Source: Candidatus Lightella neohaematopini
GTDB lineage: Bacteria; Pseudomonadota; Gammaproteobacteria; Enterobacterales; Enterobacteriaceae
Length of the DNA: 64,000 bases
Direction of reading: 5' to 3'
Assembly (NCBI GenBank): GCA_025728535.1
Contig: JAOBJO010000003.1
Span: 1-64,000 of the forward strand
Part shown: piece after piece, positions 20,888 to 63,598 of the stretch
How the letters are laid out: every line of letters starts with the position of its first letter
How positions within the stretch are numbered: position 1 is the first letter of the stretch
Notes under the pieces: generated by a model
Seen by the model: the letters and a program-made list of their open reading frames with translations, nothing else
Database searches by the model: none
What the model was told of the DNA's origin: nothing
Position numbers and translations under genes: made by a program

Positions 20888-21655
20888 TTAGTTATTAATG
20901 ATTTCTAATATCAAATTAGTAATTTTAGCATTCCCTATTAATAAATTACTAGATTTACTATAATTAGTATTTCCATTATGATCAAAAATTAGATTACCAG
21001 ATTCAATCGCTAAAAGTATTCCACTAATATAATAATTAATGTTACTTATTTTATATAAAAATATACCGTCTATTCTACTAGCAGCTAAGTATGCTAAATC
21101 TAATACATTAGTTCCATGACATCTAAGATCTACCTTAGCCATTATTAATTTTTTTAAAAAAGATAATTTTTTATTTATATCGTTTATATTATCAGTTATT
21201 AAATTAGTAGTAATAATACTATTACTTAGTATCTTATTACTATTAGTTCTTAATCTTCTATTATTTAATTGAGCTCCTTGTCCTCTTATTGCAGTAAATA
21301 ATTCATTATTTATTAATTCATATATTATTGCAATTTCAGTACGATTATTTATTTGAATAGCCATTGAAATAGTACAGTAAGGAAGTTTTTTAATTATATT
21401 AATATTACTTTCAAAATTAATAATCCAGTTAACATTATTATTATAAACATAATAATTTTTAGTAGTGTAAGAATGCTGGGGGTAATACTTTTTAATTAAA
21501 TTAATTATATATTGTTCTGCGTATTTGTTTAAATTATTTAATATAATTTCATTACTTTTATAATTATGTTTAATATTAATATGTTCATACTTTTTAAGTA
21601 GTACAAAACCAACTTGTCTAATAATTCTAGTAGCTATATTTAATATAGAATTCAT
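20888..21655 (-). CDS. suhB: SuhB-like inositol monophosphatase family protein, catalytic motifs lost
   Basis: It is 255 aa (E. coli SuhB 267) and collinear with it: KYYPQHS, KLPYCTISMAIQINNRTEIA, the block NELFTAIRGQGAQLN, LDLAYLAASRIDG and LLIGNAKI. Yet every metal or phosphate motif is gone. Asp44 aligns with N43. The Glu pair of TEES is KN (66-67). DPLDGT is replaced by NFESN (80-84). The Trp-Asp of RPWDF is NYY (207-209). It cannot be a working phosphatase of the known mechanism. In E. coli SuhB also belongs to the rRNA antitermination complex with NusA, a role reported not to need catalysis. I infer that this role is what is kept. Location near glyA and ndk matches E. coli. Confidence 0.88.
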   Translation of the reverse strand: MNSILNIATRIIRQVGFVLLKKYEHINIKHNYKSNEIILNNLNKYAEQYIINLIKKYYPQHSYTTKNYYVYNNNVNWIINFESNINIIKKLPYCTISMAIQINNRTEIAIIYELINNELFTAIRGQGAQLNNRRLRTNSNKILSNSIITTNLITDNINDINKKLSFLKKLIMAKVDLRCHGTNVLDLAYLAASRIDGIFLYKISNINYYISGILLAIESGNLIFDHNGNTNYSKSSNLLIGNAKITNLILEIINN

Positions 21656-22547
21656 TAATATTATTTACTGTATTTAACACTGAATTTATACTTAGTAATA
21701 AAAAAACAACAATTTATTTTAATTAAATTATTTAAAACGACTATTATTATTAATAATATTAAATTAATTAGTCTAAAAGTTTAACTATAATTTTTTAATA
21801 TTATTTAATTGTATCAAGAAATAAAACAAATACTGAACTTTTTTAATAATACTAATATCTTATAGACAACATACAACTTAATTAAATTAATAGTATATCA
21901 TTAATAATAATTAATGTATATAATTAGATTAATTTATAATAATTATTATTAGTCTTAGTAAAAAATATATTAATTTATAACTAAAATTTATTATTTTTCT
22001 TAATAATTTTTACTTTTAAAATAAAATATTGTTCGATTCTTAAATAAAGTATAATACATAATTATTTGTCGTAACTAAATAGAATTATAGTGCTATTAAT
22101 TTACTTTTTAATAAATTAAAATAATATGTTAAAATATTAAAATTAAAATATTTTTATACATAAATATTATAAATAATTATAGTTTAATATTAACTGAATA
22201 TTTTAGTTTTATAAGTTATTTACCAATAACGTGTGATTGATGTGTAATTTATATAAATAAATTATATGTTATAATTCTAGTGGATTAATTAATAATTTAT
22301 GGTTATTAATTTTTTTTATTTTATTAAATAATGTTATTAACATAATTAAAATATTTTAAGATAAATAAATCTTAAATTATTATATAATTAAATTCTTAGT
22401 TCTATTTAAAATTTATGCTAATGTAGAGTTTACTTATTAAGTTAAAATTAATTATTAAATATATTGATATACAAGTAAATTTATTCTATCTAAGCTATAT
22501 TTTATATTAATTTACATTTGTTGTTTGAATAATTAATGGTAATATTT
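21656..22547. other. Intergenic region, suhB to ndk
   Basis: About 890 bases with no recognisable gene, tRNA or repeat. In E. coli this interval holds the isc/hsc iron-sulfur cluster genes among others. No protein remnant could be read here by eye. Confidence 0.5.
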
Positions 22548-50878: not shown

Positions 50879-52357
50879 ATGAATAAAGAAATTTTAGCTG
50901 TTGTAGAAGCAGTTTCGAATGAAAAATTGGTTACGAGAGAAAAGATTTTTGAAACATTAGAACTTGCTATTGCTGTAGCAACAAAGAAAAAATATACACA
51001 TGATATAGAAGTTCGTGTTAGCATAGATCGAAGATCTGGTAATTTTAGTACTTTTAGACGTTGGTTGGTGGTATATGAAGTTACACAACCAACAAAAGAA
51101 ATTACTATTGATGCTGCTTTATTAGATAAGCAAGATGTTAAAATTGGTGATTACATAGAAGATGAAATTGAATCAGTTAATTTTGATAGAATAACTACCC
51201 AAATTGCTAAGCAAGTAATAATACAAAAAGTTCGTGAAGCAGAACGAGCAACAATGTTAGAACATTTTATAAATCGTAAAGGAAAAATAATTACTGGTAT
51301 TGTTAAAAGAATTAATAGAGACGGTATAAATGTTGACGTTGGTAATAATGCTGATGCTATAATTTTAAGAGAAGATATGTTACCCAGAGATAATTTTCGT
51401 ATAGGTGATAGAGTAAAAGGTATACTATATGCGGTAAAACCAGAAAATAAAGGGGCACAATTATTTATTAGTAGAGTAAAACCAGCTCTATTAATAGAAT
51501 TGTTTCGTATAGAAGTACCAGAAATTAATGAAGAGATTATTGAAATTAAAGCAGTGGTTAGAGATCCTGGGTTAAGAGCAAAAATAGCTGTTAAAACTAA
51601 TGACAAAAGAATCGATCCTATTGGTGCTTGTGTAGGTATGCGAGGAGCTAGAGTACAAGCAGTATCTAACGAATTAGGTGGTGAACGAATTGATATTATT
51701 TTATGGGCCGATAATCCAGCACAATTTGTGATTAATGCTATAACATCAGCGGATGTATCATCAATTATAGTAGATGAAGATAAACATACTATGGATATTG
51801 CAGTAGAAGAGAATAATTTAGCACAAGTTATTGGTCGTAATGGACAAAATATTAAATTAGCATCTCAATTAAGTGGTTGGGAATTAAATGTTATGACTTC
51901 TGCTATGTTAGAAGCTAAGCATAAAGCTGAAGAACAAACTGTATTAAATAATTTTACAAAAAAGTTATTAATTAATTTGTCTACAGCTAAAATATTAGTA
52001 GATCATGGTTTCTCGTCTATTGAGGAATTAGCGTATATTTCCAAAAATGAATTATTAGAAATAAAGTCAATAGATCAAAATGAAATATTATTAATTCAAG
52101 AAAAAGCAAAAAGTATAATTGGTTTTAATCTTAAAAACAAAAATTATAACCAATTAACTACTAATGTGTTATCGCAGTTGCCTGGAGTAGATGAAAATAT
52201 ATTGACAAAATTAATATCACATAATATTTCTACATTAGAAAAATTAGCGGAACAAAGTATTGATGATTTAATAGACATTAAAGGATTAGATAGTAAAAAA
52301 GCAGGAGAATTAATTATGGCAGCACGTGACTTATGTTGGTTTAATAAGTCAAGTTAA
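50879..52357 (+). CDS. nusA: Transcription termination/antitermination protein NusA
   Basis: Binds RNA polymerase and nascent RNA in pausing, termination and antitermination. It is 492 aa (E. coli 495), so full length. Order: N-terminal polymerase-binding domain (1-130), S1 (about 135-200), two KH domains ([18 protein letters not shown] and [12 protein letters not shown]), then two acidic repeats (about 360-490). Retention of the acidic repeats fits with a kept SuhB, which in E. coli contacts this region. Confidence 0.98.
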
Positions 52358-59641: not shown

Positions 59642-62600
59642 TTATTGAGTAATTAATGTTGTATTACCCCCAACAGCTGTTGTATTAATACTAATAGTAC
59701 GTTCTAACAATAATTTATCTAATGATATTTTATGATCGCCTAATTTATAATTTTGTATATTTATTAATGGTTCGTCATCTTTAGATTTACTAATAAATCT
59801 TATTAAATTATTTAGACCTAAATCATTACTATGAATTATAATAGTATCAATAGTTATTGATTTAGATAGCCAATCATTAATTAATAAAATATTACTTCTG
59901 ATTATTTTTGGTAATAGTGCTAATATTTTACATGATTTTAAATTTGATATTAATACTGGACGTGAACCAATACAAAATACAGCAACTAGTTGAATTATTA
60001 AATCAATTTCCTGATCAGCTATACACAAAATATACTTACGGGGTAATAATTTATATTTATTTAATTCACCTGTAGGGCCATCTAATAAGTAACTAGTACC
60101 ACTACAAGATATTTTGTCATACTCATTACACAAATTAATAATACTTGGATATTTATCTTTTATCCAATCAAATAAAATATTATATACATACCTAGTACCT
60201 TCACTATTAGAATCTATTTTATTTAATGATTTTAAAATATTAGGTGTAGCAAGATTATTTTTTTTATTTACTAAACGATATAAATATAGAGGGCCACCAG
60301 CTTTTGGCCCAGTACCAGATAATTTTTCACCACCAAATGGTTGAACACCAACTACTGCTCCAATAATATTTCTATTTATATAAATATTACCAGAATTAAT
60401 GTGTTTTACTACATTATTATTAGTATATTCTATTCTTGTTTGTAAACCGAACGTTAATCCATAACCATTATTATTTATTTGTTTAATTATATTATTTAAC
60501 TCATTTTTATCATACCTAATAATATGTAAAACCGGACCAAATACCTCTTTATTTAATTGATTAATATTATCTAATTCAATAATTGTTGGCGTAATAAATG
60601 AACCACCATCATTACAATAATTATTATTTTGCCATACTGCATGACCATTTTTCCTCATACTATCAATGTAATTATTAATTAATAATTTTGATTCTTTACT
60701 AATTACTGGGCCAATATCAGTTGATAAATTACTAGGATCACCAACTTTATACTCTAATACTGCTCCTTTTAACATAGATAGAGCATAATCAGCAATATCG
60801 TTTTGTAAACATAGTAATCTTAATGCAGAACAACGTTGTCCAGCACTATCAAACGCTGACTGTATAATATCTAATACAGCTTGTTCTATTAAAGCTGATG
60901 AATCAATAATCATTGTGTTTATACCACCTGTTTCAGCAATAATAGGTACAATTTTATCTTTAACTCTAGAAAATAAAATATTTTGTAAAAATTTAGCTAC
61001 TTTAGTAGATCCAGTAAACATAACACCATTGATAGAATCATTTTTTATTAAAGCAGGTCCAATAATTTTTCCTTTTCCTGGTAATAATTGCAATACTCCA
61101 TCAGGAACGCCTGCATCAAGCATAATTTTAACTACTTTACTTGCAATAATTGGAGTTTGTTCTGCCGGTTTAGCTATTACTGTATTACCAACTACTAAAG
61201 CAGCAGCTATTTGTCCAATAAAAATAGCTAATGGAAAATTCCAAGGACTAATACAAACTACTATTCCTAGTGGATAATAATTATTATCAAAGTAATTATT
61301 AGCTTGATAAGCATAATATCTTAAAAAATCTATGGCTTCTCTAATTTCTGATATAGCATTTGTAATAGTCTTTCCTGCTTCACGAATTAATAATCCAATA
61401 AAACTATACATATCTTTTTCTATTAAATCAGCAGCTTTATTTAATATCATAGCACGTTCATGATAAGTTTTTTTAATCCAACATTTAGTACTATATTTAC
61501 TAATATCAATTGATTTATTTACATCATCCAACGATGATTCCTGACATATTCCAACAATATCATTATTATTCGCAGGATTTGTAATTTTGTATGTTATACC
61601 ATTAGAAACATATTCAGAATTAATTATTGGTTTTACTTGATAAAATAAATTATTTTCATTTAATAAATTAACAATAATATTAGTTAATGTTTGTTCATTA
61701 TTTATATCTAATCCTAATGAATTTACTCTAGTCATATTATATAAATTTTTTGGTAAAGGTATTTTAGGATTTGATAAACCAATCTTGCCCTCTATTTTTT
61801 TTAATGACACTATTTTTTCAATTGGATCTACAATTAAATTTTCTATAGGAATAGAATTATCAGCTACCTGATTAATAAAAGATGTATTAGCACCATTTTC
61901 TAATAATCTTCTTACTAAATAAGATAATAAAGTATTATATGAACCAACCGGGGCATAAATACGACACGGCCTATTTAACTTATTAGACTGATTACCAACA
62001 ACATTATTATATAATGTTTCACCCATACCATGTAAACACTGAAATTCATACTGTCCTTCATAATAATTTTGACCAGCAAAATAATAAATTGATGACAAAG
62101 TATGAGCATTATGTGTAGCAAATTGGGGATATATGTACTGTGGTACAGATAATAATTTTTTTGCACAAGCTAAATATGATAAATCAGTATATATCTTTCT
62201 AGTAAAAACTGGATAATCACTTAATCCATAAACTTGAGCGTTTTTTATTTCACTGTCCCAATAGGCACCTTTAACTAATCTAATCATAAGACGGCGTTTA
62301 GTATTTTTTGCTAATTGTATTAATTCATCAATAACCTTAATTGATCTTTTTTGATATGCTTGGACAACAAAACCAATACCGTTCCAACCAACTAATTTAG
62401 GTTCATAACATAATTTAATTAGTAAATCTAAAGAAATCTCTAATCTATTTGATTCTTCTGCGTCAATATTTAAACCAATATCATATTTTTTAGCTAATAA
62501 TGTCAATAGTAATAAACGAGAATATAATTCCGTCATTACTGATTTGTATTGTAAGCGACAATATCTAGGATATAAGGCTGATAATTTTATTGATATACCT

Positions 62601-63598
62601 GGTCCATTATAAATACCTAAACCATTAGAATATTTACCAATTACATGAATTGCTTTTTGGTAAGCATTAGTATATGATAATGCGTCATCATTTGTTAAAG
62701 CAGCTTCTCCTAATATGTCATATGAATAACGAAATCCATTTTTTTCTAATTTACTAGCGGTTTTTATTGCCGAATCTATATTTTTACCAGTAACAAACTG
62801 TTTTCCTATTAATTGCATAATAATATTTACTACTTTTCTTATTAAGAAATTAATATTTTTATTTAAAAAATTTTTGCCAAAAATTTTTCTATTTTTTTCA
62901 TTGTATTGATTTGATATTAGTTTATTAACTATAATTAGTCCCCTTGTAGCAAAATTAACTAATATTGATTTATTTCCTAGATGATTAGACCAATTTTTGT
63001 TACAAATTTTATCATATATTAACAAATCTTTAGTACTATTATCAGGTATTCTTAGTAAAGCTTCTGCTAAACACATTAAAGCAATACCTTCATTTGAAGA
63101 TAAAGAAAATTCTTGTAGTAAATTTTGTACTAAATTAACTTTATTATTTATATTTTTCTTATTACTTAATCTTATTTTTTTAGTCAACTTAGTTGCTAAT
63201 ATATTAATATTATTTGATATTTCTGATGAAATATGTATCTGTTCTAGTAAATAAGGTACAATTATTTCTTCTTCACAATACCAAAAATTTGTTACATTAT
63301 TACGTATTATAGATTGAGAAGTTATACTACTAGATAATCCAATAAATGGGTGATTTGGTTTAATATTAGATATATTAATTGATGTTTTCATATCTAAATG
63401 AAGTTTATTTAATGATTCTATAGGAATAGGTAATTCTAATTCATTATTTTTTTTATTATTAAAATTAATTTTTTCTAGATAAGAGTATATAAATTCGTTA
63501 CATAATTCATCCACGGTGCAGTTACGTTGTGTAGATAATTGTTGTACACGGTTCTTTATTATATCATTTAATTTTATATGCATATTATTTACCCGCAT
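59642..63598 (-). CDS. putA: Trifunctional PutA: proline dehydrogenase / glutamate-semialdehyde dehydrogenase with N-terminal ribbon-helix-helix
   Basis: Oxidises proline to glutamate in two steps, passing electrons to quinone (FAD) and NAD. It is 1318 aa (E. coli 1320), full length. Ribbon-helix-helix region 1-47. The PRODH barrel contains GPGISIKLSALYPRY, NIDAEESNRLEISLDLL, MIRLVKGAYWDSEI and FATHNAHT. The ALDH domain has CISPWNFPLAIF, FTGSTKVA, ETGGIN and the catalytic Cys in SAGQRCSALR. The C-terminus also matches. In the DNA-binding part K9 is kept, but E. coli T5, G7 and H30 are N, H and D. putP is not upstream. The enzyme should work; the repressor role is doubtful. Confidence 0.97.
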   Translation of the reverse strand: MRVNNMHIKLNDIIKNRVQQLSTQRNCTVDELCNEFIYSYLEKINFNNKKNNELELPIPIESLNKLHLDMKTSINISNIKPNHPFIGLSSSITSQSIIRNNVTNFWYCEEEIIVPYLLEQIHISSEISNNINILATKLTKKIRLSNKKNINNKVNLVQNLLQEFSLSSNEGIALMCLAEALLRIPDNSTKDLLIYDKICNKNWSNHLGNKSILVNFATRGLIIVNKLISNQYNEKNRKIFGKNFLNKNINFLIRKVVNIIMQLIGKQFVTGKNIDSAIKTASKLEKNGFRYSYDILGEAALTNDDALSYTNAYQKAIHVIGKYSNGLGIYNGPGISIKLSALYPRYCRLQYKSVMTELYSRLLLLTLLAKKYDIGLNIDAEESNRLEISLDLLIKLCYEPKLVGWNGIGFVVQAYQKRSIKVIDELIQLAKNTKRRLMIRLVKGAYWDSEIKNAQVYGLSDYPVFTRKIYTDLSYLACAKKLLSVPQYIYPQFATHNAHTLSSIYYFAGQNYYEGQYEFQCLHGMGETLYNNVVGNQSNKLNRPCRIYAPVGSYNTLLSYLVRRLLENGANTSFINQVADNSIPIENLIVDPIEKIVSLKKIEGKIGLSNPKIPLPKNLYNMTRVNSLGLDINNEQTLTNIIVNLLNENNLFYQVKPIINSEYVSNGITYKITNPANNNDIVGICQESSLDDVNKSIDISKYSTKCWIKKTYHERAMILNKAADLIEKDMYSFIGLLIREAGKTITNAISEIREAIDFLRYYAYQANNYFDNNYYPLGIVVCISPWNFPLAIFIGQIAAALVVGNTVIAKPAEQTPIIASKVVKIMLDAGVPDGVLQLLPGKGKIIGPALIKNDSINGVMFTGSTKVAKFLQNILFSRVKDKIVPIIAETGGINTMIIDSSALIEQAVLDIIQSAFDSAGQRCSALRLLCLQNDIADYALSMLKGAVLEYKVGDPSNLSTDIGPVISKESKLLINNYIDSMRKNGHAVWQNNNYCNDGGSFITPTIIELDNINQLNKEVFGPVLHIIRYDKNELNNIIKQINNNGYGLTFGLQTRIEYTNNNVVKHINSGNIYINRNIIGAVVGVQPFGGEKLSGTGPKAGGPLYLYRLVNKKNNLATPNILKSLNKIDSNSEGTRYVYNILFDWIKDKYPSIINLCNEYDKISCSGTSYLLDGPTGELNKYKLLPRKYILCIADQEIDLIIQLVAVFCIGSRPVLISNLKSCKILALLPKIIRSNILLINDWLSKSITIDTIIIHSNDLGLNNLIRFISKSKDDEPLINIQNYKLGDHKISLDKLLLERTISINTTAVGGNTTLITQ

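Follow-up and report, generated by a model that had tools for sequence, protein, structure and literature searches.

Recurrent loss of the catalytic site of SuhB in 'Candidatus Lightella neohaematopini' and other reduced Enterobacterales symbionts, and its probable retention as a Nus factor

The suhB gene of Lightella and its catalytic motifs

The chipmunk-louse endosymbiont 'Candidatus Lightella neohaematopini' has a strongly reduced, AT-rich genome of 22% GC (PMC9376444); the genome that carries the window (the whole stretch of 64,000 nucleotides analysed here) comprises 461,635 bp in six contigs. On the reverse strand of the window, at 20888..21655, lies suhB, which starts with ATG, has no internal stop codon and encodes an inositol-monophosphatase family protein of 255 amino acids without catalytic residues, as judged from the open reading frame, profile matches, intact orthologues in six further Lightella genomes and omega values of 0.07-0.27. 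The SuhB equivalog model PRK10757 is the best NCBIfam match, covering the full length of the protein at 177 bits (below the curated cut-off of 332 bits), versus 63.6 and 35.4 bits for the next-best models (CysQ/HisN comparison), and Pfam Inositol_P matches at 78.6 bits (cut-off 27). In the PDB its nearest relatives are structures of E. coli SuhB (2qfl and 6ib7/6tqn), aligned over residues 1-250 with E ~1e-44, and identity to SuhB of E. coli K-12 is 35%. The first-pass annotation had described an almost end-to-end alignment with E. coli SuhB, which the NCBIfam and PDB matches bear out, and the non-catalytic stretches TAIRGQGAQLN and LDLAYLAASRIDG, both of which are found in the protein. On these matches the frame is an orthologue of SuhB, with a fold that is inferred from the full-length alignment to solved SuhB; AlphaFold2, given the window protein with one relative, yielded no usable structure (pLDDT 35.5, pTM 0.29). 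Lightella has only this one member of the inositol-monophosphatase family, CysQ not having been found.

The same annotation had claimed that every inositol-monophosphatase motif was gone, and residue by residue this proved correct for D44, E67/E68, DPLDGT and WD. In E. coli numbering, the alignment gives the changes D44N, E67K, E68N, D84N, deletion of P85, D87E, G88S and T89N. The codon for N43, which stands for the active-site aspartate D44, is at 21527..21529, on the reverse strand like the others; those for K66-N67, in place of E67-E68 (of which E67 is a metal ligand), are at 21455..21460; and NFESN, at 21404..21418, replaces the DPLDGT of E. coli residues 84-89 with its metal ligands D84 and D87. 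At 21032..21040, I-N-Y occupies the place of W211-D212, D212 being a further metal ligand; because of a one-residue insertion the register here is ambiguous, W211/D212 corresponding to either I/N or N/Y, and WD is gone in both registers. The protein thus lacks the features by which a catalytic, Li-sensitive and Mg-dependent inositol monophosphatase is recognised (ligands E67, D84, D87 and D212; motifs DPLDGT and WDxAAG).

The suhB frame is uninterrupted in all seven genomes of the genus, the other six proteins being 80-84% identical to that of the window. Pairwise dN/dS is 0.09-0.27 across all Lightella pairs (NG86). Comparison of the window with L. neohaematopini L469, its sole close relative found in the contig collection, gives suhB an omega of 0.22 (NG86) or 0.074 (GY94, F3x4), within the range of ten neighbouring genes (0.13-0.47 by NG86, 0.02-0.20 by GY94), and omega = 1 is rejected for suhB (2dlnL = 88, GY94). 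A dN/dS near 1, which had been named at the outset as the sign of simple decay, is therefore not what is seen. Since its frames are intact in seven genomes and omega is far below 1, Lightella suhB is not a pseudogene and is under purifying selection. In the absence of activity data, and with the fold inferred from alignment, the sequence is that of a pseudoenzyme, in which catalytic motifs have been lost and selection has been kept.

An AT-rich stretch of 880 nucleotides without a listed gene (21656-22535) separates suhB from ndk. The enterobacterial suhB leader carries an autoregulatory boxA (PMC5725501). The boxA consensus is absent from the suhB leader of Lightella, so that this autoregulation seems to have been lost.

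Erosion of the catalytic site among reduced symbionts

Comparison with related endosymbionts, as proposed in the first-pass annotation, extended an observation made in Lightella only to about 50 genera that share the loss of the site. SuhB was sought in 392 genomes of the bacterial family, of which 73 reduced or odd ones were chosen, and small genomes from an initial search were added; the resulting set of reduced Enterobacterales symbionts contributes 87 SuhBs of 52 genera, and a reference set of 25 SuhBs from genomes of at least 2.0 Mb defines 54 invariant sites. Of the four metal-ligand acids (E67, D84, D87, D212), all are lost in 24 of the 87 symbiont proteins and all are kept in a single one; one acid remains in 40, two in 19 and three in 3. 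The active site is intact in all 25 reference SuhBs, and in all but one of 17 further genomes of 2.0-3.8 Mb.

The exception, a 3.1-Mb genome (G176), has a suhB gene (C1:2336025-2336800) whose frame is interrupted by one TGA and lies in overlapping pieces; its active site is eroded, and the genome has perhaps been caught during loss of the gene.

There are 82 distinct seven-residue catalytic patterns among the 87 symbiont SuhBs. Loss of the site has been repeated, because genus g71 has both a member of 3.6 Mb with an intact SuhB (G354) and members of 0.7-0.9 Mb that are eroded, each differently (G076, G209, G409). A SuhB tree built without the catalytic columns requires no fewer than 8 changes of state (intact or eroded), 3 of them forced by well supported branches. 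Eight is probably an underestimate, because long symbiont branches attract, and the joining of G056, of another family, with other symbionts in the tree is probably an artefact.

Outside Enterobacterales, most of the other small genomes examined keep the SuhB site, and one ligand is changed in G588. Small size or AT-richness alone was considered as the cause of site loss and rejected on account of three small AT-rich genomes outside the order that are intact (G455, G701, G695). Eroded SuhB-like sites were also noted in small gammaproteobacterial genomes outside Enterobacterales, namely G557 and G765 (family f166) and G697 (family f197).

Twelve of the invariant sites are presumed to be catalytic (metal, substrate and neighbouring motif residues), having been placed by homology with human IMPase. 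Their mean retention over the symbiont genera is 31%, versus 81% for the other 42 invariant sites (p = 2e-10 in a comparison paired by genus); in 100,000 random draws of 12 sites, no set was as poorly kept (0.31 versus an expected mean of 0.70), and 51 of the 52 genera retain the ligands less well than the remaining invariant sites. The worst-kept sites include E67 (0.16), A188, R184, D44, E68, T89, D84, E205 and D212 (0.25), and the best-kept, found in 0.98-1.0 of genera, include N91, E222, Y194, N136, F125, R141, R139, P97 and Y59. CysQ conserves these nine poorly or not at all, and the catalytic sites common to SuhB and CysQ are retained at 0.16-0.56 in symbiont SuhBs. A simple division of the invariant sites into those shared with CysQ and those of SuhB only gives retention of just 0.63 versus 0.68, since symbionts also keep the glycines and hydrophobic residues common to both proteins; the contrast lies in the catalytic subset. 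The near-invariant residues of these dead SuhBs are candidates for positions that serve the fold, the dimer or Nus contacts, although the SuhB-only residues retained may be merely fold or dimer residues.

In the 16 symbiont genomes that have both genes, CysQ keeps all four ligands in every case and SuhB in one (p = 6e-8). The preservation of the CysQ site beside an eroded SuhB indicates that AT-bias alone is not the cause of the SuhB loss.

Nus factors, boxA and the NusA contact

SuhB is the hub of the E. coli rrnTAC, where it touches NusA, S10 and NusG (PMC10250234). It is required for boxA-mediated antitermination and 30S maturation, and the cold sensitivity or growth defect of suhB mutants is not due to loss of IMPase (PMC4807359). 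In the window, nusA (50879..52357, forward strand) encodes a protein of 492 amino acids that aligns with residues 1-492 of E. coli NusA and, as had been observed, keeps both C-terminal acidic repeats, AR1 and AR2, as two HHH_5 matches; AR2, the presumed SuhB-binding domain, is assigned by profile match and E. coli NusA alignment to residues 431-484 (52169..52330, forward strand). NusB and Rho were also found in Lightella. A boxA upstream of the rRNA, which the first reading had suggested looking for, is present as GTTCTTTAACA, 118 nt before the 16S rRNA in the window genome, and exactly matches the gammaproteobacterial consensus GYTCTTTAANA (PMC5725501); it is followed by GTGTAGGCACTC, which resembles boxC. 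The identical boxA occurs in two other Lightella, whose surrounding leaders differ.

An rrn boxA was found in all 16 of the SuhB-bearing symbiont genera examined (in one with a mismatch) versus 3 of 6 genera with SuhB-lacking genomes (p = 0.013), and a whole NusB in 51 of 52 SuhB-bearing genera versus 3 of 7 without SuhB (by genus, p = 4e-4). SuhB loss accompanies NusB loss and, weakly, boxA loss among the symbionts. The p values count related genera as independent, and the associations are partly confounded by extreme reduction (genera g101 and g53); the three SuhB-lacking genera that keep boxA and the three that keep NusB are evidence against a Nus role.

The contact of SuhB with NusA AR2 is carried in E. 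coli by K251 and L254, and a double alanine mutant loses affinity by over three orders of magnitude, compared with 94 nM for the E. coli pair (PMC6614801). By alignment, the corresponding helix of the Lightella protein is at 20906..20917 on the reverse strand, with N247 for K251 and L250 for L254, so that of the only published mutated contact pair L254 is kept and K251 is replaced by N in the Lightella examined. Position 251 is K or R in 50 of 61 symbiont SuhBs that stand beside an AR2-bearing NusA, and SuhB is present with an AR2-less NusA in eight symbionts. Covariation of positions 251 and 254 with AR2 is weak (p = 0.34 for K/R at 251, p = 0.03 for both residues, phylogeny uncorrected). In one genus (G152, G254) the C-terminal helix of SuhB has become unrecognisable as well as AR2 being lost. 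The eight AR2-less symbionts and the K251N change of Lightella imply that retention of suhB does not rest on the AR2 contact in every lineage, and that this contact is not the core of selection.

Loss of NusA AR2, in some cases with AR1, was noted repeatedly in symbionts of 200-750 kb (G160, G215, G081, G210, G121, G152, G254, G290, G088, G131, G226).

A dead phosphatase might instead be kept for a different non-catalytic role, for example as a general RNA chaperone, as an antagonist of RNase III or as a partner that binds RNA polymerase holoenzyme. The eight symbionts without AR2, the K251 loss in Lightella and the three SuhB-lacking genera with boxA would all suit such a role. The AR2-less symbionts do not contradict a Nus role, because entry of SuhB into the E. 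coli rrnTAC can do without AR2 binding (PMC6614801); moreover, the presence of SuhB tracks that of NusB and boxA, and in a genome of 1.2 Mb (G124) SuhB is found only as a weak paralogue-like match and broken pieces, and the NusB-like stretch is full of stops. A role outside the Nus complex is accordingly judged unlikely.

Transcription of rRNA without boxA can be suspected in a 500-kb genome (G161; assembly contamination of 8%), which has a full-length NusA and NusB, with no SuhB match and no rrn boxA.

The selected role of SuhB and the cause of site loss

It is very probable that Lightella SuhB is no longer a metal-dependent phosphatase and is maintained as a protein-only Nus factor, its inactivity and its Nus role being inferences made without biochemistry. 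The original suggestion that only the non-enzymatic role survives stands insofar as the site is lost, suhB is selected and the Nus partners and boxA are present; the absence of phosphatase activity and the Nus role as the selected role remain inferences from conservation and co-occurrence. In the mechanism proposed, the SuhB dimer would be a hub that holds NusA, NusB/NusE, NusG and the boxA-boxC leader RNA on RNA polymerase during rRNA transcription, in a complex that would shield the polymerase from Rho and help 16S folding. The phosphatase would be useless in a host-restricted cell, selection on it would be relaxed and its residues would drift through mostly G-to-A replacements, while a continuing need for the transcription role would keep the rest of the protein.

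Loss of the metal site could itself have been adaptive, if binding of metal or substrate competes with the transcription role and an empty site locks SuhB in that role. Almost every reduced Enterobacterales symbiont in the sample has an eroded site, and erosion is found even in some genomes still 1.4-3.3 Mb in size and in GC-rich genes (G056, G109), as adaptive loss would allow. However, the replacements in symbiont SuhBs are mostly single G-to-A steps (D to N, as AAT; E to K, as AAA), as AT-biased drift predicts, and the site is kept in most of the small AT-rich genomes beyond Enterobacterales; adaptive loss is judged unlikely. Equally tentative is the related idea that an intact site, by binding metal or phosphate, would compete with the transcription role, its loss being favoured in host-restricted bacteria, while free-living bacteria keep it to regulate SuhB, and hence rRNA synthesis, through a small molecule bound there.

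Conversion of the site to another reaction or set of metals, leaving SuhB an enzyme, is very improbable: D87 is kept in 56% of symbiont genera, so that some acidic residue often remains, but the replacements are lineage-specific (the 82 patterns above), with Lys among those at the E67 ligand, the lost residues have no newly conserved substitute, and at the substrate positions A188 and E205 loss likewise prevails. Ordinary pseudogene decay, with suhB dying in Lightella and its catalytic residues going first by chance, can draw on the strong reduction and 22% GC of the genome (PMC9376444) and on the loss or breakage of suhB in some symbionts (G340, G176), but it is practically excluded by intact frames in 7/7 Lightella, omega far below 1 and 81% retention of non-catalytic invariant sites across 52 genera.

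As a probable Nus factor without catalytic site, Lightella SuhB can be set beside several known systems. It resembles E. coli SuhB in its similar length, full-length alignment, retained L254 and the presence of Nus partners and boxA in the genome, but differs in having changes at all four ligand acids and at the substrate residues, N in place of K251, and a suhB gene that adjoins glyA and whose own leader lacks boxA. CysQ, a 3'(2'),5'-bisphosphate nucleotidase of the same Pfam family that in other symbionts shares the genome and mutation bias of SuhB, keeps EE, DPLDGT and WDTAAG in the symbionts examined and is by sequence a working enzyme, not a Nus factor. In laboratory variants of E. coli SuhB without IMPase, the growth function likewise survives loss of the phosphatase (PMC4807359 and PMC6614801, citing older references), whereas the symbionts have lost the whole site naturally and repeatedly. 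Fungal Dis3/RNase II pseudonucleases also lost catalysis repeatedly and kept a binding function (PMC8097288); unlike them, SuhB is a single-copy orthologue of a bifunctional protein, in bacteria of host-restricted life, and no duplication is involved.

The separability of the phosphatase and transcription roles of E. coli SuhB is already known. No report of active-site loss in symbiont SuhB was found in the literature searched, which left subscription journals and preprints mostly uncovered, and the new element, although priority is not certain, is a naturally recurrent pseudoenzyme form of this Nus factor. It amounts to a natural separation-of-function experiment repeated over about 50 genera which, independently of laboratory mutants, argues that in obligate symbionts SuhB is selected for its non-catalytic role. 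It also argues that free-living bacteria have a use for the phosphatase, as yet unidentified in E. coli, that vanishes inside the host. Where symbiont genomes and metabolic models carry the label 'inositol-1-monophosphatase', this is probably mistaken. Elsewhere in the window, a long PutA-like frame of 1318 amino acids (59642-63598), which by eye we take to encode proline dehydrogenase and P5C dehydrogenase, is kept in this 461-kb genome.
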